From the NCBI RefSeq assembly GCF_000620085.1, contig NZ_KK211064.1, positions 1-64,000 on the forward strand: 64,000 nucleotides of DNA. The letters are read 5' to 3'. Source of the DNA: Marinobacterium jannaschii DSM 6295 (GTDB lineage: Bacteria; Pseudomonadota; Gammaproteobacteria; Pseudomonadales; Balneatricaceae). The position numbers and the translations under genes were made by a program. Every line of letters begins with the position of its first letter. Position 1 is the first letter of the stretch. Shown in pieces: positions 7,258 through 20,815 of the stretch. The notes below the pieces were generated by a model that worked only from the letters and a program-made list of their open reading frames with translations, did not search any database and was not told where the DNA came from.

Positions 7258-7282
7258 AACCGGAGCTCAACAGGCTCCGGTT
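7258..7282 (-). terminator. Original glmS terminator, now on the far side of the Tn7-like element
   Basis: On the reverse strand AACCGGAGC (7282-7274), a 7-nt loop and GCTCCGGTT (7266-7258) form a perfect 9-bp stem, followed by eight Ts. No gene on this strand directly precedes it except the transposon. The same CCGGT flanks the other transposon end behind glmS, so this is the glmS terminator displaced 11.7 kb by the insertion. Confidence 0.9.
7277..7281. other. Target-site duplication CCGGT, left copy
   Basis: CCGGT directly precedes the transposon terminus TGTGGGAG. The identical pentamer follows the other terminus at 18964-18968. Five-bp duplications are the rule for Tn7 insertion. Confidence 0.93.
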
Positions 7283-7430
7283 GTGGGAGAGTAATAAAGT
7301 ATCATACTTAGGATAGCCTCAAGCAGCATTCCACGGTAACCAAGACAATCCCTCTACAAAATAAAGTATCATACTGAAGTTACTTTAACCTTAATCGTTA
7401 CACGCTCCTCAAGTAATAAAGTATCATACT
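7282..7430 (+). repeat. Transposon left end with three spaced TnsB-type sites
   Basis: The 16-mer AATAAAGTATCATACT occurs without change at 7293-7308, 7360-7375 and 7415-7430. Three spaced copies are what the Tn7 left end has, where TnsB binds a related AATAAAGTC-containing repeat. Together with the terminal TGT this defines the glmS-distal end. No gene is seen between 7148 and 7523 other than these sites and the displaced terminator. Confidence 0.93.
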
Positions 7431-7523
7431 AATATGGTCTGCACTGACACTCCTTGTGTGGTGTGACTGCTATTGTCTGATACAGAGCTATGAACACCCT
7501 TCCTCACACCATCTCGAAAGTCA

Positions 7524-9590
7524 TCAACCTAAATATTTATTCAAATCTGACTCATCTACTTTTTTAATACTAATTTCGCTTACTATACTGCGGTCAAGAT
7601 TAATTAAAACATCACATATTGCGGCAAAGAGTCCACAATTATCTGCGCTAGCTTCTACTTTAGGCTTCGATAAGAATCGGGTCGACTGATGAGCTCCAAT
7701 ATGTGACTTCTTAACTGAAACCTTAAAGTCATCTACATCTAGAGAGTTATTTAGAGTTGAGTAGGATATACCTGTTGCTCTACTTATCTCAGTTACAAGT
7801 TTCGGATTTTTTTTCAGCAGAATTATTATGCCAACAACATCTTTTAACAGCTGATCCCTCAGCTCTTTTTTAACTGAATTTTCACACTTATTTAAATCGA
7901 AGTTAGAAAACCACTGTGATTGACGCTTAGATAATTTATCTGAAGAGATTTCAAATATTGATCTAATCGAGCAAGCAATTAGTGGTAAGTAATCTTCTTT
8001 ACACCTAGATGAGTATGCTTTATCTATAGCATTTATAATATCAGACACTGTTTCCATTCGAACAACATACTCGGACCCTGACTTTATTTTAAAAAGGGAC
8101 TTTTCATGAACGGCACCAGAGAGGTTTGAAAATTTTTGCTCAAAATCAATGATAATATCCCTGGAAACAACCCCAGTTACATTATCAACGTATTTAAATA
8201 TAATCTTCTTTTTACAAGGCTCTTCGATTGAGGGAAGCACTCGGCTACTTGATATTTCTCCATCAACGGTAATTTCTACTTCTGAATTTTCTACAGTCGC
8301 ACCTGAACTGTCTTTAACTTGAAATAGAAAGCTCTCCAAGTCTATCTGATCTGATGGTATATCAAACCTCACTGCCCTTTGCCTATCAATAAATATCGAC
8401 GCAACTCCATTTCTTTTATTATCAGAGCTTTTATTGGGAAAAGCTTTTCCTGTGGGAACTACTTTCCCTTTTCTTAACTCCCTCTTTAACCTAGACCCTT
8501 CAGTTTGAATCAATCTATTAAGGCTCTCCAAGTCTTTAATTAGACACCTTGTCAAGCTGCTATCTACAAAATTTGTTCTATCTGAATTAAAATCGATACC
8601 TTCACTATGACTCGTCACACTAACTCTGCCTATTATCTGAGGTAAAGTATCTTCTGTTCTTTTCTTCCTTAGCAGCTCAGGATCAAATACAGTAATGTTA
8701 TTAAAAAGATTTCTGTTTACATACACCAGAGGATAAAGAGCACTATCATGAACTCTCTTATTTAATGGAGATATGGTTTTAGAATTCTTTCCGTTAGGAA
8801 AATTAAATATTACTAGTTTAACATTAACTAAGTAATCCAATCGACTTAAAGAGAAATCAAAAGAGCGAATACATTCACCTTTGTGATAAAAGTCTACTTC
8901 ATTTTTTGATGAGTCATAGTCAACATAAAACAGCTGACAGTCTTCTTTCTCCTTCTGAAAAGACTTAAGGCTATCAGTAGAAACTATCTGTTCTTGATTC
9001 TCAATTTCTATTTTAATATTGAAGGTGTCATCTACAATTGCTGCTGCCAACTTCTCGATTACTCTACTATCAGATAAATCTGATAACAGCTCATCAAGCT
9101 CACCGTTTTCTGAGAATACTGTGATTGTTGTTCCACTTTTTTCGTATAAGTCTGTAGTTACCGAGATTTCAGTTCCAGAAACATCATCTTTCGCAACTAG
9201 CTCTGACTTAGAGACCGAAAACTTACTACGAGTTCCATTCTTACTAGTTACCCATTCAACTTTGTCACCAAACTTAAAAGCAGAAAGGAAACCAAGACCC
9301 TTTGATCCTTGAGTAAGCCGTTTTATACCATCTTGCTCCACTTCATGACCATAACTCTTCGAACTTTTCGAAATGTGGAATAGTGAATCAATTTCTTCCA
9401 TTCCCATCCCATTTCCATGATCACAGATCGATATTGTTTGCTTTGATTGAGATAATTTAATCGTGACATCAGGTGAAAATGCGTCGTATGCATTCTTAAT
9501 CAGTTCATTTAATGCAAACAGTGACGATGGTATTTTTTGCGATAGCTCTTCTATTAGGTTTCCACTAAATCGCAGTGAAGTAGTTGACAT
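7524..9590 (-). CDS. MutL/MORC-like GHKL ATPase (transposon cargo)
   Basis: 688 residues; AAGGAGG lies 7 nt before the ATG. The N-terminal quarter is a GHKL (Hsp90/MutL-type) ATPase: motif I ELIKNAYDA (29-37, with the Mg-binding Asn), motif II DHGNGM (57-62) and motif III GSKGLG (95-100). The middle looks like an S5-type transducer domain followed by beta-rich sequence. The C-terminal third (about 540-640) is helical and includes a helix-turn-helix-like TEISRATGISYSTLNNSL. No nuclease motif is recognised. It follows the methyltransferase by 83 bp in the same direction. MutL-like ATPases paired with methylases were described as parts of predicted restriction-modification systems and as relatives of eukaryotic MORC proteins (Iyer, Abhiman and Aravind). 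The gene is markedly AT-rich compared with the host. A defence role is inferred. Confidence 0.8.
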   Translation of the reverse strand: MSTTSLRFSGNLIEELSQKIPSSLFALNELIKNAYDAFSPDVTIKLSQSKQTISICDHGNGMGMEEIDSLFHISKSSKSYGHEVEQDGIKRLTQGSKGLGFLSAFKFGDKVEWVTSKNGTRSKFSVSKSELVAKDDVSGTEISVTTDLYEKSGTTITVFSENGELDELLSDLSDSRVIEKLAAAIVDDTFNIKIEIENQEQIVSTDSLKSFQKEKEDCQLFYVDYDSSKNEVDFYHKGECIRSFDFSLSRLDYLVNVKLVIFNFPNGKNSKTISPLNKRVHDSALYPLVYVNRNLFNNITVFDPELLRKKRTEDTLPQIIGRVSVTSHSEGIDFNSDRTNFVDSSLTRCLIKDLESLNRLIQTEGSRLKRELRKGKVVPTGKAFPNKSSDNKRNGVASIFIDRQRAVRFDIPSDQIDLESFLFQVKDSSGATVENSEVEITVDGEISSSRVLPSIEEPCKKKIIFKYVDNVTGVVSRDIIIDFEQKFSNLSGAVHEKSLFKIKSGSEYVVRMETVSDIINAIDKAYSSRCKEDYLPLIACSIRSIFEISSDKLSKRQSQWFSNFDLNKCENSVKKELRDQLLKDVVGIIILLKKNPKLVTEISRATGISYSTLNNSLDVDDFKVSVKKSHIGAHQSTRFLSKPKVEASADNCGLFAAICDVLINLDRSIVSEISIKKVDESDLNKYLG

Positions 9591-9673
9591 TTAAAACCTC
9601 CTTATTCTAAAAAACTTCTAATCTTTTCCAAATATAAAGATCAGAATCTATAAAATCAAAACTACCACTCCTA

Positions 9674-11005
9674 TTATTTTCGCATAATAAGAATGGACTC
9701 TTTCCCCATCGTCGACGCTATTTTATTTCTGACAGCCATTCGCTTTGTCGGTATTTTTCTCTCAACCTTATGAACAAAATGACACCCTTCGAACTCAAGT
9801 AACTCTCTCATTATACGATCTAATGGGACTTCAATGTTTGAAACTCTTCTATTACCCAAAGTCCATATCATATAAGCATCGTCCCGTAACATACTTAATG
9901 AGTTTACTAATGCTTTATCTAAATCATATACAAATGATGTCAATTTTTTTATATTATGTGGATTTACTTCCTCAATTTCACTTATACAACTACACAAAGA
10001 TTCAGACTTGTATCTTAGTTCGCTATATTTCTCTTTTGCATCCTTAATAGATCCTCCAAGACTCATAGAGTCAATGGCGTTCTGATGAGCCAAGAAGTCA
10101 TTTTTTCTTAGGTTATCAATATCATTCAAATCTATCCACATCAGTGGTAAGTAAGAAAACTGTCCATATGTAACCGTAGTCTGGTTATCGCCATAGGGAG
10201 GTGAACTAACTAATAAGTCATACTTATAAGGAGTTCTTATTTTTCCAGAAGCATCTGTGTTTTTAATAACAATATTACTAATTGATGAAGCCATCTTGAG
10301 CACATTTCTTTCTTTTAATATTTTCTTTTGTGCCTCTATTCTTTCTATATTCTTTCGAAGCCTTTTTTCAAAAACCTCTATCGCAGATGGGATCGTTTCT
10401 ATTTGATCATCTGACTTTATATGCAACTTATATGTAGAGCTTCTAGAATTACATACGGCCCGTACGGTGCTACTCATTGAGAGCCAAAATACTTTTCTTG
10501 CCCACTTTGAGGGCTCTTTTTTTATAGCTCGATGAATAACACTTAGCTCTACCTTTGCGGTAAAGGTAAACCATTTATCTATTCCGCTAAATTCCACAGA
10601 TACTTCATCAGATAAATCGTTCTTTATTGTATCTAATATTTTTTCAGATTTATCCTTTAACTTTTCAATATAAAGAGGCCCACTCTTTACCTCACAAGCT
10701 AAAACAGCAAGTGGATTGATATCTATCCCCAGAAAGTCCAAACCTCTACACATAGCTTCCCCTAGTGTAGTGCCGGAGCCAACAAACGGATCTAGTACTC
10801 TACGGATGCTTTGATCTTCCTCTAGAACCGCATCAATAAGTTCCCCCTGCATTTCAGGTATCATCATTGCAGGATATTGTATCAAGTCATGGCAGTGATG
10901 CCGTACAGATCGTCCTCTAAATGACCAGTACTCTTCATCTTCCAGTGTATACGCGCTTATCCTACTCTGGAGATCTAGATCCTTCTTATGTGCATTCACT
11001 ATCAA
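9674..11005 (-). CDS. DNA amino-methyltransferase (N6-adenine or N4-cytosine), transposon cargo
   Basis: 443 residues. SAM-binding motif I is DPFVGSGTT (72-80), followed by GIDINPLA, and the catalytic motif is SPPYG (268-272), typical of amino-methyltransferases. Motif I precedes the catalytic motif. The 190 residues between them probably include the target-recognition part. The start is uncertain: the first in-frame codon is TTG at 11005, with a GTG six nt further in, and neither has a strong ribosome site. It heads a two-gene operon with the GHKL ATPase. No restriction endonuclease or helicase is present, so it may be part of an unusual modification-dependent defence pair or a solitary modifier. 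Strongly AT-rich, so acquired from elsewhere. Confidence 0.85.
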   Translation of the reverse strand: MIVNAHKKDLDLQSRISAYTLEDEEYWSFRGRSVRHHCHDLIQYPAMMIPEMQGELIDAVLEEDQSIRRVLDPFVGSGTTLGEAMCRGLDFLGIDINPLAVLACEVKSGPLYIEKLKDKSEKILDTIKNDLSDEVSVEFSGIDKWFTFTAKVELSVIHRAIKKEPSKWARKVFWLSMSSTVRAVCNSRSSTYKLHIKSDDQIETIPSAIEVFEKRLRKNIERIEAQKKILKERNVLKMASSISNIVIKNTDASGKIRTPYKYDLLVSSPPYGDNQTTVTYGQFSYLPLMWIDLNDIDNLRKNDFLAHQNAIDSMSLGGSIKDAKEKYSELRYKSESLCSCISEIEEVNPHNIKKLTSFVYDLDKALVNSLSMLRDDAYMIWTLGNRRVSNIEVPLDRIMRELLEFEGCHFVHKVERKIPTKRMAVRNKIASTMGKESILIMRK

Positions 11006-11062
11006 TAGCTCATTTTTATGATCGATGGGGATTTGAAGCTTACAATGATAACAGTGTAGGAA

Positions 11063-11072
11063 GGTACGTACC
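11063..11072. promoter_or_regulatory. Palindrome GGTACGTACC upstream of the methyltransferase
   Basis: A perfect 10-bp palindrome lies about 60 bp before the methyltransferase start, in the AT-rich 184-bp gap after tnsE. It could be an operator or the enzyme's own target site; this is only a suggestion. Confidence 0.25.
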
Positions 11073-11189
11073 AGGTGTGAGCGAAAGAATCATTCAATCC
11101 TATCTCATTGTTTTAATTAGTAAAATATGGGATTTCATATTCGGTAGAATATTAATATTTACTATTATTAATAGCTTTTCCGATACAGC

Positions 11190-12788
11190 TCATACAATTT
11201 TTATCGAGAACCTCAGGGCCCACTTTTGTACATCTTCAACTGTTAATACTCCATCATTACCTGATTTTTGATGTGGTATCCCAAAGTGATTCTTGGTTCC
11301 GAACAGGCTATCTAAGAACTCCGTTGGCCATGATAAAGATGCCTTTAACAGCCTCTTCTCAATTTCAGATATGCTCTCTTCTAAGTTACTTATAGCTCTA
11401 GCATTAATCACTCTAGTCGACAGTGCTTCTTTAGAGTCAGATGTATCAACCTCTAACAGAACATAGGTCCCATTGCTGGTATTGACTCGGGTTACGGAGA
11501 AACACCTAGGGTTTCCATCAGACTTCAGAATATGCTTCTTGCACCTCCCAATAGAAGGCAGCTTTCTAAGCGGATACTGAATGATCTGACAGCCATGATT
11601 ATTCTGAAGCAACTTCAGCATCTCGAAGTAGCTGGTAAATTTGTTCAAATAGAGGTGGGCATCGTCTGTCTGCTCATCCAGATTGTCCCATTCAGCACTC
11701 GGTAAATCACCATTAGGCCCTTGCTCTTCGGTGCTAACATCACGAGAGGCTTCAGAGAGCTCCCCTTCATGATCACCTCCTAAGCCTATCGGTCGTCTCT
11801 TTTGGCTTATTTTCGATGTCTCTACTGCCCGTGCTAACGAGAATTCCGTTGAGATATCGCCAATCAAGACAGGCCTGTTTTCTTGGCTTGCTTCAACCGA
11901 GTCATCTACGTTATGACCAGAGGGCCTATCTGCTCCATCACCAACCTTATGACCTTTACCCGCCACTTGCGAATAAAACTTGGGACTAAAGAACTCGATA
12001 TTGTCTGGTAAGTTGGAGGGTATTTCTCTTATTCCATTGATCTCGTATACGAGCAAGGCTCTACTTTCCGGATCAAAGTGACCTTTTACATGCAATCTCG
12101 CTCCTTCCAAAGGGGGAGGTGCGAACTGAAAGGTCCATCTTCTATACTGTCCTACAGAATACCCATCAAGCATCTGGAGATTGCCGATGCTCTCAAAGGA
12201 GGCTCTCGCATCCGCATCAATTAATATCCAGGCGAGTACTCTGCGATAGCCATAATCATTGAATAGGTCTACTGGGCAGTTGCAGGTATCCAGAACATTA
12301 ATAATGGCCCTTCCAGTCTCTCCAAACTCTACTGAAAACTCATTGCTTAAAGCATCATGTAGCAGTGAAGTACGGGCCAAGTAGCCATTGTGGAAAAACA
12401 GTGCTCTCGCCAGCTCAAATTGAGGAAGGTAGAGTTTAGTTCCATCGGGTAGCGGGAACACAAAACAATACTGCTGGCGCTCGATAGGAAGCCTTCTTTC
12501 CAGGGCAGGGCAATTCCCAAGACTTTCAACCAACCAATCATTAGTCGAAGTTACCGAGAAGCTTTTTTCGTATCGTGTGAGGGAATATTCGCTGGTTTGG
12601 TTAATTATCTTCTTGCGAACCAGTACAGGCGCATTGGATAAAGATGTAGCATCCCGCCCGCTTTCCCTGCTGGGATAAATACTTAGGTTAACGCCCCACC
12701 TAGTTCCATCAGTTCTGCGGAATAGATCACCGATACCATTGATCCAGGTATCGTCCTTGAATCCTTTCAAGTAGATGCTTCCTTTCAA
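11190..12788 (-). CDS. tnsE: Transposition protein TnsE
   Basis: 532 residues from a TTG at 12788 that overlaps the tnsD stop (TTGA), with GGAG 8 nt upstream; Tn7 TnsE has 538 residues. Diagnostic conserved stretches are LPQFELARALFFHNGYL, FAPPPLEGARLHVKG, LPSIGRCKKHILKSDGNPR and YVLLEVDTSDSKEALSTRV, all matching Tn7 TnsE as I remember it. In Tn7, TnsE directs insertion to conjugal plasmids and lagging-strand DNA by recognising 3' recessed ends and the sliding clamp. Having both tnsD and tnsE means this element should use both the chromosomal and the plasmid-directed pathways. Reading from an upstream in-frame start would add 28 residues that overlap tnsD and lack similarity. Confidence 0.92.
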   Translation of the reverse strand: MKGSIYLKGFKDDTWINGIGDLFRRTDGTRWGVNLSIYPSRESGRDATSLSNAPVLVRKKIINQTSEYSLTRYEKSFSVTSTNDWLVESLGNCPALERRLPIERQQYCFVFPLPDGTKLYLPQFELARALFFHNGYLARTSLLHDALSNEFSVEFGETGRAIINVLDTCNCPVDLFNDYGYRRVLAWILIDADARASFESIGNLQMLDGYSVGQYRRWTFQFAPPPLEGARLHVKGHFDPESRALLVYEINGIREIPSNLPDNIEFFSPKFYSQVAGKGHKVGDGADRPSGHNVDDSVEASQENRPVLIGDISTEFSLARAVETSKISQKRRPIGLGGDHEGELSEASRDVSTEEQGPNGDLPSAEWDNLDEQTDDAHLYLNKFTSYFEMLKLLQNNHGCQIIQYPLRKLPSIGRCKKHILKSDGNPRCFSVTRVNTSNGTYVLLEVDTSDSKEALSTRVINARAISNLEESISEIEKRLLKASLSWPTEFLDSLFGTKNHFGIPHQKSGNDGVLTVEDVQKWALRFSIKIV

Positions 12789-14293
12789 ACTCCGAGTATC
12801 TCCTTTAAGAACAGGTAAGCGGGCTTCGTAAGCCGCTCTTCGCTCAATCCCGAGCACCTTAGCACCTGCCAACGTTTTGGTGACTTTCCTGCTTTCGAGA
12901 AGCGAATAAAGGTGCGAGTTATTCTTCTAATTTGGTATTCAAATATACTTTCGCAATAGCGCTCGAAGAACATACGACACAAAGGCATCTTAGCTAAATG
13001 CTTTTCGATACTGGCTTTGTGCCCCAGCGTGTTCAGGTACCAGTTCCTCGATTTTCTAGGAGTGTACAGCTGCTGTTCGCTTTGGTCACGGATTACGAAT
13101 AATTTCTTAACAGTATATCTATCTCGCTTGTACCAATCCGCTCTGAGCAGGGGGCCTAGTTTTATTTTTTTATGCTTTCTGTTCGTTTCCATTAACCAGA
13201 CGTAGTCGTGACGGTATAACCATGCGTAGACATGACCAATTCCGTTCGAGCGAGCTTGCTTAACACCTTGCTTTGCAACGGCTGAAAGCCACCAACTACG
13301 GTATTCGTTTACCCGTCTACGATTAGTAGTCATAGGCCGTTTGCTCGCAGTCTTCTTAACAGATGTAGTTCGAGCCGCAAGCTGAACAATGTCCGATATA
13401 GACCATCCTGGCTCCAGTAGGGCATGCAATACCACCAGATGCTCGAGATAGCTAAACGCCTTACGATGCTTCCTGAACATATCTTTCAGCCAGAAAGACT
13501 CTCCCGCTTCTTGTAAAAGTCCGTATCGTGCTAGCCAATCGGCTCCCCAAAACTGAACGATCAGATCTCTCACCAAATCATGGCGTATCTGATTGCCCCT
13601 ATTAAAGTGGTGGTCGACAGCCAATCTCCTATACAAGATCCCCCATTGGAGGAGTTCAGGTACGGGGGTTGCTCCAATATTTAGTAGGTCGCTTATGCTG
13701 ATTGCCAGTAGGTCACTTTGCCAAGCCCCTCGCTGCTGCCCAACCTGAGGGCAAATCTCTCCATCAGCAGCTAGGAAGGAGTGCCTCCTGGTATCATGAC
13801 GAAGTAATTTAGAGTCGACTAGTTGACCGTGTTCCGGGCAGCTTTCAGCCCCAAGAACTTGCCAAGTTCTACGCCAATAATATTCCCCATGCATGAGCAT
13901 CTGATTGTTAAAACATCCTGGACAATATCTCAGAAAACGGGGCTGCTTAATGCGAGAAGCCGCAATACCTGCAGTTAGATAAACAGTATTCTTTCGATGC
14001 GTTAAGAGCTCATTGAGGAGGCGGTTCCGTCTTTCTTCCCCCACAAATGGGGCATAGACAGGAAACAGCGTATGCTTGTACAGCAGCTCGGCCCCTGTTA
14101 CTCCAAGTTCTTTCGGATATAACGCCTCTATAAATTTCAGGTGTCCCGGGAGATCGGAGGTAGCAATGATTTTGCTGTCGCCAAAGACATCTCGAACTAG
14201 TTCCTTGGCAGATGTAATGCCGCATTGAACCCCATACCTCGCGATCGTGCTATAGAGCAGTTCATCACGATAAGGCAGGGGGAAACCCAACAT
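12785..14293 (-). CDS. tnsD: TnsD, attTn7 target-site selector (TniQ family)
   Basis: 502 residues (Tn7 TnsD has 508). The TniQ N-terminal domain begins MLGFPLPYRDELLYSTIARYGV. It carries HTLFPVYAPFVGEERR and a CCCH-type zinc site (YCPGCFNNQ, then SCPEHGQ), followed by helix-turn-helix regions that read the target. It should bind the 3' end of glmS and recruit TnsC. The insertion actually seen behind glmS supports this function. One base separates its ATG from the tnsC stop, so translation is probably coupled. Confidence 0.96.
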   Translation of the reverse strand: MLGFPLPYRDELLYSTIARYGVQCGITSAKELVRDVFGDSKIIATSDLPGHLKFIEALYPKELGVTGAELLYKHTLFPVYAPFVGEERRNRLLNELLTHRKNTVYLTAGIAASRIKQPRFLRYCPGCFNNQMLMHGEYYWRRTWQVLGAESCPEHGQLVDSKLLRHDTRRHSFLAADGEICPQVGQQRGAWQSDLLAISISDLLNIGATPVPELLQWGILYRRLAVDHHFNRGNQIRHDLVRDLIVQFWGADWLARYGLLQEAGESFWLKDMFRKHRKAFSYLEHLVVLHALLEPGWSISDIVQLAARTTSVKKTASKRPMTTNRRRVNEYRSWWLSAVAKQGVKQARSNGIGHVYAWLYRHDYVWLMETNRKHKKIKLGPLLRADWYKRDRYTVKKLFVIRDQSEQQLYTPRKSRNWYLNTLGHKASIEKHLAKMPLCRMFFERYCESIFEYQIRRITRTFIRFSKAGKSPKRWQVLRCSGLSEERLTKPAYLFLKEILGV

Positions 14294-14294
14294 G

Positions 14295-15950
14295 TTATCC
14301 CACTCTTTTCATCCAGCTCGGCACATCAAACAAGTCCTGACCGTATTTGAGGTCTTCGTAAAGACATCCCTTATCCGCTTGGGAAAACTTAAATCTCAAA
14401 TCGTCAGACGGAAGCGTATGCCATTCAGCCGGTTTTATATTCACTGTCTTTGGCTTATCCTGAACAGGCGTTTCTGAATACCAATCAAGTACGACCCGAC
14501 TCAATTCCGGCAGGGAAAGATTCGGATATTCTCTGAAGACTTTTTCAATTAGGGGATGCAGCAAGCTAGTTTCGCACTCCATAGCCTGTAACATACTGTA
14601 GAGGCGCAAAGCCTTTTCATTGCCATTGAAAGCTGGAGTGCTTTCCTTCTCTGCTTGCTTCTCGTCGATCTGTTTCTTTAATTCTATAAGCCGCTTATCA
14701 ATTTCTGGCATCTGAAGGTCAGAGTACTGAACGATAAGCTCCGGTTTGTCTTGCCGCAATGCATCAAGCATAGGATGTACCGGCTTCAGCTCCTGATCGT
14801 AAACTGTACGAAGCAGTTTCGCTGTTATTCGCTCCACTCCAGTGGCAATAGCACGCATTTGAGCAAGTACAAATAGCTTAACGACGATATCAAGCACACC
14901 CACGGACAGTTCAAACCAGCAATCTCGAATCTCTTCAGTTAACACTTCATCTTTTTTGGTCAACCATTGGTATTGCCATAACTTATCGGTAAAAGCCTGC
15001 CACTCAGTTTTTCTTACTTTACCGGTCTGCGGATCAACCCTGGCCAGACCCTTTTGCATAGGCCCCCAAAAGAGAGAACCAAACCCTGCACTCCGTCGAC
15101 CAGACTGGAGCTCCATTTCAAATATGGGTCGAGCCTTCGGGGTACCCACCATCACTACGGGAACCCCAATCACGTTTACCAAGGCTACGAAGAATTCCAG
15201 CATCGCTTCCTTACTTACTGAACGCTTAAGGGTCAGGCGCTGAATCTCATCGATGACGAGTATGCCTAATGCCCGCTGTGTCGCCACCTGACCCATCAGG
15301 GAAAGCAGAACTTCTGTGCTATGGCGTTTCCGTGCATATTTCTCTTCGTAACTAGTATGAAGAGTGCGATCAACCTCACGGAAAAAGTTCAAGCAAAGGC
15401 TCTTCAACGAACCATCTGAAGGGCACTCTATTCTCAGGTAAGTGAGTTGAACGAAATTGTATTCTTGGTGATAAATAGCCTGCGGGTAGGTAGCCAGGAT
15501 TCGGTTTATGGTCGAGCTCTTACCACTACCAGAGCAACCAATCAGAGATAAACTTTTGGCCGTCGATTTGGACTGTGCAAATTGAAAACTGTTAGAGGCT
15601 CCCGACATAATCCTTTGGTAGCCTTCCTGCATCTTTCTATTCAGGGAGCCATCCGCTATATTGCGACCAACGTAGCCTCCCCGAATCATGACAGACACCT
15701 TCTCTTCCAACTGCTTATGAGTTGATAAGGGTTGAAAGAAGTCATCTAAAAGCATACTGATCTGGTGAGCACGAATATGCGCCTTTTCGAAGCAGTCTTG
15801 CGGATTGAAGATAACCCTTCCACTCAACTGAACCTTGAGGTCTTGCAAGTCCATGATTGGTGGAAGAGCCTCTATCAAAGGATTACCACGGTAACGCTCG
15901 ATACCTGGATCAATATAGACAGCCTCAACGAAGTTTTCAGGGAGAGGCAT
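14295..15950 (-). CDS. tnsC: TnsC, AAA+ transposition regulator
   Basis: 551 residues (Tn7 TnsC has 555). Walker A is GCSGSGKS (138-145) and Walker B is LGILVIDE (229-236). TnsC bridges the target selectors TnsD or TnsE and the TnsAB transposase, and enforces target immunity. The ATG shares one base with the tnsB stop (TGATG), indicating coupled translation. The C-terminal tail past residue 480 is the expected TnsA-contact region. Confidence 0.96.
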   Translation of the reverse strand: MPLPENFVEAVYIDPGIERYRGNPLIEALPPIMDLQDLKVQLSGRVIFNPQDCFEKAHIRAHQISMLLDDFFQPLSTHKQLEEKVSVMIRGGYVGRNIADGSLNRKMQEGYQRIMSGASNSFQFAQSKSTAKSLSLIGCSGSGKSSTINRILATYPQAIYHQEYNFVQLTYLRIECPSDGSLKSLCLNFFREVDRTLHTSYEEKYARKRHSTEVLLSLMGQVATQRALGILVIDEIQRLTLKRSVSKEAMLEFFVALVNVIGVPVVMVGTPKARPIFEMELQSGRRSAGFGSLFWGPMQKGLARVDPQTGKVRKTEWQAFTDKLWQYQWLTKKDEVLTEEIRDCWFELSVGVLDIVVKLFVLAQMRAIATGVERITAKLLRTVYDQELKPVHPMLDALRQDKPELIVQYSDLQMPEIDKRLIELKKQIDEKQAEKESTPAFNGNEKALRLYSMLQAMECETSLLHPLIEKVFREYPNLSLPELSRVVLDWYSETPVQDKPKTVNIKPAEWHTLPSDDLRFKFSQADKGCLYEDLKYGQDLFDVPSWMKRVG

Positions 15951-18031
15951 CAGTCATCTTCCCCAAAAAGTTCGTCGATATAGTCCGGATAGTCTAGATC
16001 TGGTTCCGAGCGGTCGATTCTTACTACCTCGCCAGGCTTTTCGCTATGCTCTATGGCAGGACGATGCGCCATCTCTTTCCTTTCCCTAGTCTTTTCCTTC
16101 TGTTTATTTTCGTTGATAGCACGGATTCGTTGAGCGTTAGATAAACTCGATGTATCTGGGGCAGATTTCTCGGCTTGGGCAATCTTATCAATGACGAATT
16201 CCTCATGTTGACGCTTCTTCGCTTTCGACTGAATTTTTGCCCTGGCGGATGTCTTCTTCTGCTCATCTCTTATCAACCAAACATCCCAGAATGAGGCCCC
16301 TCTAAACTCCCTAGATACATCGGCCAGATTACAGACCCAATACTTAATAGACCCCCTTTCAGGAAAGAGGTAGATTCTATCTGCAACTAGAGGATCATAA
16401 GCTGCGTCTATAGCACCAGGGCGTTTTACACTCTTACCTCGATGCATCCAGCCTTTCTGCAATAATTCTGACGATGTGTAGTAAAGACCAAACAAACAGG
16501 CACCTTGCTCTGACAAGGTTGCCCTTTTTTTAGGTAGTAACGCGATTCGAATTGCATCTGAATCAGCCTGACTTAGGCGCCCGGTTCTATTCTGCAATCC
16601 CCAATTCCAGAGCTCTATAGGCGTATTGGGAAGATCTGAAGGCATGTCGGCATCTCTATCGTACTTGTCCAATACGGCGTATTGGTTGTGGTAAAGCACG
16701 CTCGAGAGAATGATTTGGGTAAAGTCTCTCACCGTCAACTTGGCATCTAAGCGGTAATCCCTGCCTCCTCGCTTTTTCACCGTAGTGCCAGAAACATAAC
16801 CAGGTACGAAATGACCGAACGAAGCCTGGATCGTCCTAAAGTTCCGTTCCACTATGCCTTTAGCATCTCCCCGATAAGGCGGTGTATTTTCTATCCTTAC
16901 CGAGAAACTACTCTCTAGATTCTCAACTTGGTGTCCTAACAATTCCCCTCTGTCGGCTAAAACGGCGTCAGGTAATCCAACACTTGGCCAATCCTCCGGC
17001 TCGATGTCGAACTCTAATGCACTGCAATAGGCCGTTTTATCTGAGGCCGCCATATACAGTGCTTGCATTGCAGCTACATAAGAGGGCGTTTCAAATCCAA
17101 TGTAGAAGCCTGCAATCATGCGGCTAAATACATCGATTACCATATACACTACTGGTCGACCAACAATATTCCCGCGATCACTGTCAGAAACGACATAAAT
17201 ATCGGCGACGGTGGCATCGATTTCATAACGAGAGCCTGGGCCAAGCACTTGCGTATTTGCCTTACTGTGCAAAGGCCTAATATCCTTGTTGTACTCAATG
17301 CTAGAAACTCGCTTTTTGAGGGTTTCTGGTTGTTGATACTCGCGCTTGTAGAAGTGCAGCATTTGCCAGTTACTAGGTAGCTCAGACTCCGAAGTATCTG
17401 GAAAGTAATTGCGATACATAGATTCAAAGCGGCGATGCGCATAGAGGAACGAATGCCCTTTATCTATAAGCAAATAGCGATCGATAGCGATACGAAACAA
17501 GCGTTCCGTGAACTCGTCTAATTTAGCGCCAACTCCAGGCGCATCTTTACGTGGGCGCCCAAGCTTCTTATCCTTGGCATGACGCCTTTTACCTTTCCCA
17601 CCAGAATTTTTGTAGTCAGGCAACAGAGCATTCGGTACTTGGCCACGCTGCCAAAATCTCCTAACCAGACGATACAATGTCTGCTTGGTCGAACCCTTTT
17701 CGGCGAGAATGCGATTTATAATAGCCCCACGGCTTTTCGGCTCAAAGAAATCAGGCAGTTCAACTAGTGGCTTTATCAGAGTGAAGTTACTATCGCGTTT
17801 GCTTCTAGCAACGCTTCCCTCCAGAGGGGACTCAAAAGCCAGGTCCTTATAAGGATCCTCCAGCCGTTGAAGGTTCTCTTGATCGATAGCCTCAATCAAT
17901 TCTTCAACTATCGCAATCTCGGGAAAAGCTGATTCATCATCTATATCGATCCAGACGAGGTGCTCGCCAAGCAGTTGCAGAACACGATATCGGCGGTCAC
18001 CGAACTGAAGCACATCATTGATTCGAAACAA
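15950..18031 (-). CDS. tnsB: TnsB, DDE transposase
   Basis: 693 residues (Tn7 TnsB has 702). The TTG start overlaps tnsA by 17 nt and follows GGGAGG by 6 nt. Helix-turn-helix DNA-binding regions fill roughly residues 90-240. The retroviral-integrase-type core has D272 (YEIDATVADIY), D360 (VLADRGELLG) and E395 (DAKGIVERNF), each one position below the Tn7 numbering 273/361/396 that I recall. It should bind the AATAAAGTATCATACT repeats at both ends and cut the 3' strands. Confidence 0.96.
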   Translation of the reverse strand: MFRINDVLQFGDRRYRVLQLLGEHLVWIDIDDESAFPEIAIVEELIEAIDQENLQRLEDPYKDLAFESPLEGSVARSKRDSNFTLIKPLVELPDFFEPKSRGAIINRILAEKGSTKQTLYRLVRRFWQRGQVPNALLPDYKNSGGKGKRRHAKDKKLGRPRKDAPGVGAKLDEFTERLFRIAIDRYLLIDKGHSFLYAHRRFESMYRNYFPDTSESELPSNWQMLHFYKREYQQPETLKKRVSSIEYNKDIRPLHSKANTQVLGPGSRYEIDATVADIYVVSDSDRGNIVGRPVVYMVIDVFSRMIAGFYIGFETPSYVAAMQALYMAASDKTAYCSALEFDIEPEDWPSVGLPDAVLADRGELLGHQVENLESSFSVRIENTPPYRGDAKGIVERNFRTIQASFGHFVPGYVSGTTVKKRGGRDYRLDAKLTVRDFTQIILSSVLYHNQYAVLDKYDRDADMPSDLPNTPIELWNWGLQNRTGRLSQADSDAIRIALLPKKRATLSEQGACLFGLYYTSSELLQKGWMHRGKSVKRPGAIDAAYDPLVADRIYLFPERGSIKYWVCNLADVSREFRGASFWDVWLIRDEQKKTSARAKIQSKAKKRQHEEFVIDKIAQAEKSAPDTSSLSNAQRIRAINENKQKEKTRERKEMAHRPAIEHSEKPGEVVRIDRSEPDLDYPDYIDELFGEDD

Positions 18032-18845
18032 GATACACCTCCCGGATAAAATTTAGCTCTCCGAGTTTTAGATCCGAAGCCTTAAGTTTGGTGGTTGGAA
18101 TAAACAAATCGAAGGTGAAATAACGCTTAGCCAGCAATTGCCTCACTTCGTGGAGAGACTCTCCGAGCGGTAGATCGTAGGCTGTATCCAATGCCTTACA
18201 GATAGAGATAACTGTTTTATCCCGATTTCTTTCGAGATGATGGGCGTAAAACTTTATCTGCTGAAGATCTATCTCCGTACTCTCTTCCTCTTCTCGCTGT
18301 GCTGGATAAAGCCACTTAATGTTTGTCGCAACCACAGCAGGCACTTCTGCTTCCGTGATCAGATACCAAGGCAACGCTTTCTCATGCCAATATCTACGTT
18401 CTAGCTCAAGCTTTTCCACAGTCCGACGATCATTCAATGCATCCCTATACTTCACTTGTAGGACAAATCTAGGCTCTTTCGCATTACTTGAATCGACTAG
18501 AAAGTCAGATGACATGTACTGATCAACACCCGCAACCTTGGGGTGCTTTATACCCGCATCTGCAGCGAGTCGGCGGGTAATATCTCTTTCTAACGGGAAT
18601 TGCTCTCGAATTTGGGTAACTTCGCTATGCCATTCCAGCATCAAAAAGACAGATAACTCGAGATCTGATAACAGGTGATGTGTGCGCTTGGACTTATGTC
18701 CAAAGACACGGTGGACTCGTCCCAAGGAGGGTAGATCCCGAACTGTTAGCCAGGGCTTGTAGTCAGAATGCTGACCTATGCCACGGCCTTCCTTGACCAT
18801 CTTTGCTAGCCGGGCCTCTGTAAGCCCATTCTTTTGTGACTTCAT
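18015..18845 (-). CDS. tnsA: TnsA, 5'-strand endonuclease of the transposase
   Basis: 276 residues (Tn7 TnsA has 273). The restriction-endonuclease-like catalytic residues fall at exactly the Tn7 positions: E63 (LLSDLEL), D114 (MSSDFLVD), Q130 and K132 (FVLQVKY). EKLELERRYW follows as in Tn7. It cuts the 5' strands so that the element leaves by full double-strand excision. No good ribosome site precedes the ATG; instead a hairpin and T-run abut it, so translation may be weak. It is first in the tnsABCDE operon, next to the right end. Confidence 0.96.
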   Translation of the reverse strand: MKSQKNGLTEARLAKMVKEGRGIGQHSDYKPWLTVRDLPSLGRVHRVFGHKSKRTHHLLSDLELSVFLMLEWHSEVTQIREQFPLERDITRRLAADAGIKHPKVAGVDQYMSSDFLVDSSNAKEPRFVLQVKYRDALNDRRTVEKLELERRYWHEKALPWYLITEAEVPAVVATNIKWLYPAQREEEESTEIDLQQIKFYAHHLERNRDKTVISICKALDTAYDLPLGESLHEVRQLLAKRYFTFDLFIPTTKLKASDLKLGELNFIREVYLVSNQ

Positions 18846-18894
18846 AAAAAAACCGCCGAACCTTGCTCATAAAACGAGCATAGGCACGACGGTT
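18846..18894 (-). terminator. Terminator-like hairpin directly before tnsA
   Basis: Reverse-strand AACCGTCGTGCC (18894-18883) pairs with GGTTCGGCGGTT (18862-18851) with two wobbles and one mismatch. Inside is a second stem, TGCTC/GAGCA. Seven Ts follow and lead straight into the tnsA ATG. It would stop glmS read-through, replacing the glmS terminator that the insertion displaced, and would restrain tns expression. The Tn7 right end has a comparable hairpin before tnsA, as I remember its sequence. Confidence 0.7.
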
Positions 18895-18896
18895 CC

Positions 18897-18963
18897 AGTA
18901 TGCAACTTTATTACTCAGTATGATACTTTATTGCTTAGTATGATACTTTATTACTCACCGACA
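18897..18963 (-). repeat. Transposon right end with three tandem TnsB-type sites
   Basis: The AATAAAGTATCATACT repeat (reverse strand) is at 18937-18952 and 18917-18932. A variant with two changes lies at 18897-18912. Spacing is exactly 20 bp. Closely packed repeats are a right-end feature of Tn7, where TnsB binding also represses the tns promoter. The terminal 5'-TGT lies at 18963. Confidence 0.93.
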
Positions 18964-18968
18964 CCGGT
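18964..18968. other. Target-site duplication CCGGT, right copy
   Basis: CCGGT follows the right terminus ACA and matches the left copy at 7277-7281. It lies 20-24 nt past the glmS stop codon. Confidence 0.93.
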
Positions 18969-18988: not shown

Positions 18989-20815
18989 TTATTCAACCGT
19001 CACCGATTTTGCCAGGTTACGCGGCTGATCCACATCGGTGCCTTTCAGCACTGCTACATGATAGGACAGCAGCTGTAGCGGTACAGTGAAGACGATCGGT
19101 TCAAGGATCGCGGGGACTTCAGGCATATGCAGTACCGCCATACCCTCTTCTGGCTTCACTTGTTCGCTACAGCCGGCAAAGACAAACAGCTCGCCACCGC
19201 GGGCACGGACTTCCTGCAGGTTGGCTTTCAGCTTATCCAGCATACCGTTGCGGGGAGCTACCGTAACGACCGGCATATCCTTGTCGACCAGCGCCAGCGG
19301 GCCATGCTTCAGCTCACCGGCCGGATAGGACTCAGCGTGAATATAAGAGATCTCTTTAAGCTTCAGAGCGCCTTCCATCACCACCGGGTACATAGGGCCG
19401 CGGCCGAGGAACAAGCTGTGATGCTTCTCAGCAAACGACTGAGACATCAGCTCGATATCCTTATCCATCTCCAGCACCTGGCGGGTCAGTTCCGGCAGTT
19501 GTTGCAGCGCAGCTACGATTTCAGTCTCTTTCTCTTCGCTCAGGTTATGACGGCGGCCCAGCGCCAGTGTAGTCAGCAACAGGCCTACCAGCTGTGTCGT
19601 AAACGCCTTGGTGGATGCGACGCCGATCTCAGGCCCGGCATTGGTCATCAGGCAGAGGTCAGATTCACGTACCAGAGAGCTGCCCGGCACGTTGCAGATG
19701 GTCAGGCTGGCCAGCACGCGATCCTTAATCTCGCGTAGCGCCGCCAGGGTATCAGCCGTCTCACCGGACTGGGAGACACTGATAAACAGGGTGCCTTCCG
19801 GCAACACCACCGGACGGTAGCGGTATTCACTGGCCACTTCCACATTACAGGGAATGCCCACCAGGTCTTCAATCCAGTACTTGGCGACCATGCCGGCATG
19901 ATAACTGGTACCACAGGCGATAATCTGGACCTGTTTCACCTGATCAAAGATCTCTGAAGCTCCGGCACCAAACGCCTGCTCCAGCAGACGGCCATTGCTC
20001 AGGCGACCCTCCATCGCGGCGGCCAGAACCTTTGGCTGCTCGTAGATCTCTTTCATCATGTAGTGCTTATACTCGCCTTTATCGGCAGAGGAAACACTAT
20101 GCTCGTAGCGCACAACATCACGCTCGACAGACGCACCCGCCTGATCCCAGACTTCGATTCCGTCACAGCTGATACGGGCGACATCGCCTTCATCCAGAAA
20201 CATAAAGCGATCGGTCACCTGCAACAGGGCCAACTGATCGGAGGCAATAAAGTTCTCGCCGATACCGACGCCAACCACCAGCGGGCTGCCTTTACGTGCA
20301 GCGATCATCTGTCCCGGATTATCCATCTGGATTACACCCAGGGCAAAAGCGCCTTCAAGCTTCGCCACAACTGTATTCACCGCGTCAAGGATAGCGCTGC
20401 CGCCATTCAGTTCAGCCTGCAGCAGGTGCGCAACCACTTCGGTATCGGTGTCAGAGGTAAACCGGAAGCCCTGCTTGATCAGTGCCGCTTTCAGGACTTC
20501 GAAGTTTTCGATAATACCGTTGTGAACAATCGCCAGGCGATCCCCTGACATATGAGGGTGGGCGTTGTTCTCGGTCGGCTTACCATGTGTCGCCCAACGG
20601 GTATGCGCGATACCCAGATGGCCTGACAGCGGGTTCTCAGCCAGCGCATCTGCCAATGCCTGTACCTTGCCGGTACGACGCAGGCGCTCTGTAGTATTAC
20701 CATTACTCACTGCCATACCGGCAGAGTCATAACCACGATATTCCAGACGACGCAGGCCTTCCAGCAAGATCTCAGCAACAGGACGTGCCGCAACGGCACC
20801 TACAATTCCACACAT
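18989..20815 (-). CDS. glmS: Glutamine-fructose-6-phosphate aminotransferase
   Basis: 608 residues. After Met1 is the catalytic Cys2 of the class-II glutaminase domain (CGIVGAVAAR), then HTRWATHGKP. The second half has two SIS sugar-isomerase domains (ACGTSYHAG, SQSGETADT) and ends DVDQPRNLAKSVTVE, the conserved tail whose codons form the TnsD binding site. It makes glucosamine-6-phosphate for cell-wall and lipopolysaccharide precursors. It lies 18 bp after glmU in the same direction. Its coding sequence is intact despite the transposon; its own terminator has been moved away. Confidence 0.98.
   Translation of the reverse strand: MCGIVGAVAARPVAEILLEGLRRLEYRGYDSAGMAVSNGNTTERLRRTGKVQALADALAENPLSGHLGIAHTRWATHGKPTENNAHPHMSGDRLAIVHNGIIENFEVLKAALIKQGFRFTSDTDTEVVAHLLQAELNGGSAILDAVNTVVAKLEGAFALGVIQMDNPGQMIAARKGSPLVVGVGIGENFIASDQLALLQVTDRFMFLDEGDVARISCDGIEVWDQAGASVERDVVRYEHSVSSADKGEYKHYMMKEIYEQPKVLAAAMEGRLSNGRLLEQAFGAGASEIFDQVKQVQIIACGTSYHAGMVAKYWIEDLVGIPCNVEVASEYRYRPVVLPEGTLFISVSQSGETADTLAALREIKDRVLASLTICNVPGSSLVRESDLCLMTNAGPEIGVASTKAFTTQLVGLLLTTLALGRRHNLSEEKETEIVAALQQLPELTRQVLEMDKDIELMSQSFAEKHHSLFLGRGPMYPVVMEGALKLKEISYIHAESYPAGELKHGPLALVDKDMPVVTVAPRNGMLDKLKANLQEVRARGGELFVFAGCSEQVKPEEGMAVLHMPEVPAILEPIVFTVPLQLLSYHVAVLKGTDVDQPRNLAKSVTVE

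Follow-up and report, generated by a model that had tools for sequence, protein, structure and literature searches.

GHKL ATPases encoded beside methylases were predicted in 2008 to take part in restriction systems (Iyer et al., PMC2292703), and the role of MORC-like ATPases in bacteria has been a question since that prediction. About 70% of the MORC neighborhoods described there also encode a helicase, and a minority are without one (PMC2292703). Later reports added paraMORCs in restriction-modification (R-M) neighborhoods that carry a C-terminal HEPN-family (Ymh) domain (2013; PMC3710099) and GHKL proteins with an added C-terminal HATPase_c domain beside methylases (PMC8011034). PD-lambda-5, a tested anti-phage system, had an effect on nine of ten phages and has been described as a compacted form, found in prophages, of an R-M plus abortive infection (RM+Abi) system; work on it made use of an mrr deletion host (Vassallo et al., 2022, PMC9519451). 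DefensePredictor names a HATPase and a receiver domain among its predicted, not validated, systems (PMC13092281), and the main text of a survey of Tn7 cargo makes no mention of MORC, GHKL or HATPase (PMC8649781). Here we analyze a 64,000-nucleotide stretch of the Marinobacterium jannaschii DSM 6295 genome (contig NZ_KK211064.1, positions 1 to 64,000; the whole stretch is called the window), in which a Tn7-family element carries the genes for an amino-methyltransferase and a GHKL ATPase. We suggest, with a probability of about 0.6, that this pair is a compact, mobile, modification-linked defense module in which a paraMORC-like ATPase would serve as the restriction partner, with unmarked DNA as the target.

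The pair and the parts of the ATPase are laid out as follows.

7524–9590, minus strand: GHKL-S5 ATPase, 688 residues, with predicted beta-rich and PD-lambda-5_A-type C-terminal domains (Pfam, alignment, model)
8451–9590, minus strand: ATPase residues 1–380, GHKL and S5 module of the MORC/Hsp90/MutL type (Pfam, model, best VIA row 7–371)
8136–8408, minus strand: ATPase residues ~395–485, beta-rich and possibly Ig-like, after a low-confidence linker (model; weak Pfam Big match, E 0.08–0.11)
7527–8057, minus strand: ATPase residues ~512–688, helical C-terminal domain resembling that of PD-lambda-5_A (model, profile comparisons)
9674–11005, minus strand: amino-methyltransferase, 443 residues, of a family found with MvaI/BcnI endonucleases (Pfam, PADLOC, motifs DPFVGSGTT and SPPYGD)

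Both genes lie on the minus strand, 83 bp apart. An earlier note, made from the sequence alone, had called them an operon. Their adjacency and common strand suggest this; given a weak terminator-like hairpin at the methyltransferase end (9665–9696) and promoter-like hits at chance level, the pair stands as a candidate operon in the window.

The association of the two genes extends beyond the window. Full-length relatives were found with the ATPase (the protein or its alignments) as the only query, so that adjacency to a methyltransferase was not selected for. They comprise a protein of Rheinheimera pacifica (L002, 66% identity), proteins in the IMG/VR contigs L038/G424, L043, L060, L061, L062 and L064, and one in the genome G758 (E 2.9e-250). 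Together with the window these make nine distinct loci, of which L062 is cut by the contig end, leaving eight with both flanks. A methyltransferase of the same family is directly adjacent on the same strand in seven of the eight (six of seven without the window), the outcome of a neighborhood comparison that the earlier note had proposed. The methyltransferase comes first in the window, L002 and G758. The ATPase comes first in the phage-type contigs L043, L060, L061 and L064, where co-transcription is clearer: the genes overlap by 4 bp.

Loci at which the match is limited to the GHKL part serve as a contrast. A full-length methyltransferase of the same family is present at none of nine such loci with wide flanks (L010, L011, L039/L044 and L068–L073, a selection from the matches listed; the match at L070 spans 47 columns). 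A set of twenty loci, including five counted before, has only about 1.5 kb of flanking sequence; these loci likewise show none, and such short flanks say little. Close relatives are rare. No blastn match was found in E. coli genomes and no full-length tblastn match in plasmids and phages. Among genomes of the window's class, 11 of 369 match at E 1e-8, ten of them in the GHKL part only; among those of its phylum, 20 of 398 match at 1e-9, full-length only in the window's own genome and at G758. As separate observations on these loci, the genes at L071, L072 and L073 read as GHKL proteins with a receiver-like protein after them and a Vsr-like or C5 methyltransferase gene nearby, an arrangement that resembles published HEF_HK/Response_reg_2 systems. 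The L011 record, a Neisseria gonorrhoeae 'plasmid' of 2.17 Mb with a GHKL-only open reading frame of 297 residues, looks chromosomal.

The frame at 9674–11005, counted from a TTG codon whose use as the start is uncertain, matches PF01555 (Pfam, E 1.9e-7). The PADLOC MTase_II model PDLC03360 covers it nearly end to end (E 3.9e-182) and is the best methyltransferase model for it; a D12-type match in Pfam reaches only E 0.034. Motif I (DPFVGSGTT) stands about 195 residues before SPPYGD. These matches bear out the amino-methyltransferase first proposed from its motifs, and together with the MTase_II model the motifs mark it as a putative DNA methyltransferase of type II R-M. Among plasmids, 31 records hold relatives, and we examined seven loci (L003–L009). 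An MvaI/BcnI endonuclease is the neighbor in five of the seven and a GHKL protein in the remaining two. The five, from Geobacillus, Liquorilactobacillus, Macrococcoides, Parabacteroides and Lactococcus (28–34% identity), all have the endonuclease alongside; the Geobacillus gene, annotated as hypothetical, is identified as MvaI/BcnI by Pfam (E 4.3e-53). In the other two, from Rhizobium and Hymenobacter (37–39%), the next gene encodes a double-GHKL protein. Because relatives of the methyltransferase pair with either MvaI/BcnI endonucleases or double-GHKL proteins, the ATPase sits where a type II-like system would have its endonuclease. On the Rhizobium etli (L003:3902–7779) and Hymenobacter monticola (L004:3932–7897) plasmids, the methyltransferase gene lies directly before that of an 828- or 842-residue protein whose two ends each carry a GHKL domain; this is a second arrangement with GHKL in place of the endonuclease.

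The MvaI and BcnI methylases produce N4-methylcytosine. Given the family kinship, the mark made by the window methyltransferase is therefore probably N4-methylcytosine on a short sequence of host DNA. At E 1e-20 the methyltransferase profile matches the window's own genome only, among 57 genomes; it gave no match in viral contigs, though the ATPase search later found relatives there. In a 14-row tree of methyltransferases, two changes are needed for the eight that have a relative of the ATPase, and the basal forks are weak; the starred branches force at least two changes, all owing to the G424 methyltransferase, so that for the other seven the tree is compatible both with one origin of the pairing and with more than one.

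The N-terminal module of the ATPase is recognized by both sequence and structure. PF13589 (HATPase_c_3) matches residues 24–133 (E 1.2e-16), the motifs ELIKNAYDA, DHGNGM and GSKGLG named in the earlier note are there, and the GHKL residues E29, N33, D57, G59, G61, G95, K97, G98 and G100 are invariant in all seven aligned proteins, in agreement with the 688-residue GHKL ATPase read earlier from this frame. A structure model built from seven relatives (mean pLDDT 74, pTM 0.41; good per domain) places the GHKL domain at residues 1–160, an S5-like domain at 160–340 and a long helix at 345–374, followed by a low-confidence linker, the beta-rich domain (~395–485) and the helical domain (~512–688). 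In VIA-align, residues 7–371 match MORC3 (5ix2_A) with Z 18.3 and rmsd 4.2 over 297 aligned residues, and SMCHD1, MORC2, MORC4 and Hsp90 match the same region with similar Z values (17–18 for MORC3, SMCHD1, MORC2 and Hsp90). The best 50 matches all fall within residues 1–387, so the C-terminal half lies outside their reach. A Foldseek comparison with viral models returned RIIA, topoisomerase, Hsp90 and unnamed entries, which we attribute to the GHKL part. In L043, L061 and L064, a low-complexity repeat forms the linker that joins the S5 part to the beta-rich domain (L043 residues ~402–465, for example); in L060 the repeat is shorter. Its unit and length vary (DGEQTKD, DPNSQPDET, TDTTTQPDE, PAPA), as if the linker length were free to change.

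The GHKL match and the modeled S5 fold, together with the VIA alignment of residues 7–371, would place the protein within the broad MORC family. The MORC signature GhXhhpXXRhl in the S5 domain, sought by regular expression, occurs in none of the seven proteins. The ATPase is therefore best described from its sequence as paraMORC-like in the sense of PMC2292703, not as MORC proper: it combines GHKL and S5, lacks the signature and lies in a methylase and restriction context. The earlier label, MutL/MORC-like, holds for the MORC/Hsp90/MutL type of module and fails for MORC proper. Marks of the narrower groups were also sought. The ExxxH that marks the C-terminal part of S5 in paraMORC2 is found nowhere in the window protein and is absent from four of the seven proteins overall; the HxH motif of paraMORC5 is in none of the seven C-terminal domains. 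Pfam gives no match to a TIR extension (paraMORC4) in the ATPase or its C-terminal domain, and no nuclease match of the RE-fold kind (E-D-ExK, DUF4263; paraMORC3 or Shedu I-D). Identity as MutL (22.3 bits against a curated cut-off of 180) or HtpG (35.8 against 371) was rejected, and the C-terminal half gave no match to an ordinary housekeeping protein, which had been named as a finding that would count against a new system. The N-terminus matches the NCBIfam restriction-enzyme family BbrUII/HgiDII (NF050001, E 2.8e-16); membership was rejected at 59.2 bits, over residues 22–195 only, against a family cut-off of 550.

The C-terminal half, previously called unassigned, resolves into a linker, the beta-rich domain and a helical domain similar to the C-terminus of PD-lambda-5_A; that it holds no recognized nuclease still stands. 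Scanned alone, the C-terminal domain of all eight relatives matches PADLOC PD-Lambda-5_A models at E ≤0.1, with five models and a best E of 2.8e-16; the window protein reaches 1.1e-7 (positions 472–594 of 613). An hhalign comparison of the eight pair-ATPase C-termini with seven PD-lambda-5_A-like C-termini gives a score of 31.1 (E 4e-4); the highest score reached in 100 column shuffles is 20.1. Y508, S541, R543, G632 and H634 are invariant in the eight ATPase C-termini. The PD-lambda-5_A-like C-termini likewise keep one Arg and one His, plus Glu, Leu and Trp. Full membership of PD-lambda-5 was rejected: only positions 337–460 of 467 of the A model are matched, and the N-terminal part is GHKL-S5.

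A search with the PD-lambda-5_A model found 14 places in 12 of 274 genomes, the window's own included. The proteins at the loci we examined (L024–L028, L033 and L034; L029–L032, L036 and L037 were left out) match the A model in their N-terminal part, which is weakly ParB-like in two of the four scanned (Pfam E 0.03–0.09). A D12-type methyltransferase is next to the protein at five of the seven loci, one confirmed by Pfam and the others identified by reading. A second PD-lambda-5 model, PDLC03996, is matched in 4 of 249 genomes. Two methyltransferase-linked modules thus appear to share a C-terminal domain while differing in their N-terminal parts. At L024–L027 and L033, which come from several genomes of the window's class, the PD-lambda-5_A-like protein precedes the D12-type methyltransferase, suggesting that the PD-lambda-5 family extends beyond the form known from an E. 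coli prophage.

The pair recurs on unrelated mobile elements. In three of the four phage-type contigs (L043, L060 and L064), the gene immediately upstream of the pair encodes a repressor with an S24 peptidase domain, and two of these three repressors have a CI-type helix-turn-helix; none was recognized in L061. Acinetobacter phages (24 records) match parts of the L043 flank, up to 18% of it, and the same kind of comparison gave no match for the L064 flank. In R. pacifica (L002), genes from another Tn7-like element (tnsA, tnsB, tniB and tniQ) stand next to the pair, with a TnsB 23% identical to that of the window. We looked for the ends of the Rheinheimera element and did not find them, and the open reading frame upstream of its pair has no TnsE match.

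In the window, the mobile element is complete.

7277–7281, no strand: left copy of the target-site duplication CCGGT (sequence)
7282–18963, no strand: whole Tn7-family element, 11,682 bp (ends 25/27, target-site duplication, repeats, tns genes)
7282–7430, plus strand: left (glmS-distal) end with three AATAAAGTATCATACT repeats at 7293, 7360 and 7415 (sequence)
11190–12872, minus strand: tnsE (PF18623, E 1.1e-44)
12785–14293, minus strand: tnsD/tniQ (PF06527, PF15978)
14295–15950, minus strand: tnsC (PF13401, PF11426)
15950–18031, minus strand: tnsB (PF09299 and position)
18015–18845, minus strand: tnsA (PF08721, PF08722)
18897–18963, minus strand: right (glmS-proximal) end with three repeats, one with 2 mismatches (sequence)
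18964–18968, no strand: right copy of the target-site duplication CCGGT (sequence); glmS ends at 18989

The element inserted about 25 bp beyond the glmS stop codon. Its identity as a Tn7-family element rests on tnsABCDE, on end repeats flanked by a 5-bp target duplication and on the site beside glmS. The termini match at 25 of 27 bases, and each end contains a 16-base repeat three times, a single copy differing at 2 bases (the chance mean is 0.00). Pfam recognizes tnsA to tnsE, tnsB solely through Mu-transpos_C and its position. The tns frames overlap, tnsA and tnsB by 17 bp (18015–18031) and tnsD and tnsE by 88 bp (12785–12872) when tnsE is read from a TTG codon; the tnsE start is uncertain. 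The methyltransferase and ATPase genes are the only cargo and lie just inside the left end, away from glmS. Their GC content in 1-kb steps is 0.345–0.40, compared with 0.42–0.48 over the tns genes, 0.53–0.57 in the 7 kb to the left of the element and 0.56–0.57 in the 3 kb to its right. The earlier note had the pair as the sole, AT-rich cargo at the glmS-distal end, and each of these points is confirmed.

Based on these observations, we propose the following mechanism. The methyltransferase would place a mark, probably N4-methylcytosine, on a short sequence of host DNA, and in this way self could be discriminated from non-self. Unmarked DNA would let the ATPase engage as a dimeric clamp that is closed by ATP and belongs to the MORC/Hsp90/MutL type, and the C-terminal domain would then deliver or trigger an effector step, either cutting of the DNA or shutdown of the infected cell. 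Several results weigh against this proposal. Pfam, PADLOC and NCBIfam scans recognize no nuclease domain in the ATPase, which leaves cutting without sequence support; the earlier statement that the pair has neither helicase nor recognized nuclease is upheld. The similarity to BbrUII/HgiDII ends near residue 200, both in the HMM match and in a profile alignment to two proteins, one a member above the cut-off and one a relative below it. The hhalign probability for the PD-lambda-5-like C-termini is just 35%, and the conserved Arg falls within the aligned part, which ends ahead of the conserved His. At G758, no transposase or known defense gene is recognized next to the pair on reading; the neighbors, one of them a NUDIX protein, look chromosomal. 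Finally, in G424 four genes lie between the ATPase and the methyltransferase: one SfsA-like, one for an MvaI/BcnI endonuclease and two for which Pfam gives no clear match. The G424 methyltransferase also groups with the endonuclease-paired ones (100/100), and we do not count this locus as the same pair. The G424 contig (50 kb, IMG/VR; L057, L094–L097) holds three open MvaI/BcnI genes and one copy with stops.

The G424 arrangement, an ATPase relative near an MvaI/BcnI endonuclease with its methyltransferase and further such genes, is what would be expected if the ATPase only assisted or regulated an ordinary endonuclease from elsewhere, the pair itself being a modification and addiction cargo. 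We regard this as very unlikely: the overlapping pairs in phage-type contigs are self-contained, and a search aimed at MvaI/BcnI alone found no such endonuclease in the window's own genome, although its built-in controls gave no match either (the same model matches two records known to hold one). A different account would have the ATPase sense missing methylation or phage action and an RNase-like C-terminal toxin stop the infected cell. The resemblance of the C-terminus to PD-lambda-5_A, whose authors liken the system to RM+Abi (PMC9519451), the reported HEPN-family (Ymh) C-termini on paraMORCs in R-M neighborhoods (PMC3710099) and the one invariant Arg and one invariant His are consistent with it. 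The HEPN comparisons argue the other way, and make it unlikely. The R-x(4-6)-H motif is not conserved in the C-terminal domain of the seven proteins, with only L060 having any there. Alignment to Ymh (four proteins) scores 12.8, below the maximum of 17.0 in 50 shuffles. Abi_C gave inconsistent results: a first set of nine of ten loci (L088 omitted for an internal stop, L086 in the wrong frame) scored 16.0 against at most 15.0 in 50 shuffles, and a cleaned set of eight rows, with L086 and L088 removed, did not uphold this, scoring 11.3 against up to 17.9 in 100 shuffles. The cleaned set scores 19.6 against the PD-lambda-5-like C-termini, with at most 14.6 in shuffles. The Abi_C comparisons therefore lend no support to a HEPN domain in the ATPase C-terminus, and give a hint of one for the PD-lambda-5-like set.

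The clamp might also act without cutting, entrapping and silencing unmarked DNA while the methyl mark spares the host chromosome. Residues 7–371 match MORC3, SMCHD1, MORC2 and Hsp90 about equally, the ATPase has no recognized nuclease domain, and C. elegans MORC-1 entraps and condenses DNA (PMC8277788). The MORC signature is missing from all seven proteins, however, and the resemblance of its C-terminus to PD-lambda-5_A suggests that the ATPase works as an effector or regulator, as in that system, so that entrapment, too, seems improbable. In a stricter form, which we hold to be quite improbable, the pair would be a two-gene immune system in which the MORC-like clamp alone recognizes that methylation is missing and, without cutting, silences or locks foreign DNA; this would be the bacterial equivalent of transposon silencing by MORC proteins, spread on Tn7 elements and prophages. 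We keep non-cutting silencing under consideration because no nuclease is recognized, HEPN is unsupported and no MvaI/BcnI partner was found in the window's own genome. Compared with these alternatives, a modification-linked module with the ATPase as restriction partner is the reading we favor, and the pair is probably a compact anti-virus system of a previously predicted type.

How far the pair is new follows from its comparison with known systems. The earlier note had called it undescribed; restriction by GHKL proteins with methylases was already predicted (PMC2292703) and Ymh paraMORCs have been reported (PMC3710099), whereas for this pair no published description was found among open-licence PMC papers. 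New are this particular two-gene unit, the finding that it recurs both on Tn7-family elements and in phage-type contigs, and, as far as the profile comparisons indicate, a PD-lambda-5_A-like domain on a GHKL ATPase. With the paraMORC/MORC restriction systems (PMC2292703) the pair shares a GHKL-S5 ATPase in a DNA-methylase operon; unlike them as described there, it has no helicase, no recognized nuclease, no MORC signature and no ExxxH or HxH. VcSduA, a paraMORC3 Shedu protein with anti-phage activity, is also a GHKL ATPase with a C-terminal domain, but it is a single gene with a PD-(D/E)xK nuclease domain, and the available text mentions no methyltransferase for it (PMC12137116). In BbrUII/HgiDII (NF050001), a GHKL protein with N-terminal homology is likewise the restriction partner of a methyltransferase; M.BbrUII and M.HgiDII are 5mC enzymes (PMC5867850), and past about residue 200 no homology to the pair ATPase was found (score 59 against 550). 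PD-lambda-5 combines a protein having a similar C-terminal domain with a DNA methyltransferase and is placed on a prophage (PMC9519451), as four of the ATPase relatives lie in phage-type contigs. The model-matching PD-lambda-5_A-like proteins, as distinct from the E. coli original, have another N-terminal part, weakly ParB-like in two of four and not GHKL-S5, and their D12-type methyltransferase belongs to a family other than the pair's. The C-terminal domain ties the pair to a tested anti-phage system. With the MvaI/BcnI type II R-M systems, it has the methyltransferase family in common and differs in having an ATPase where the endonuclease would be. Being limited to two genes, the pair is compact enough for cloning and dissection, and it would show whether, and how, a GHKL clamp can stand in for a restriction endonuclease.

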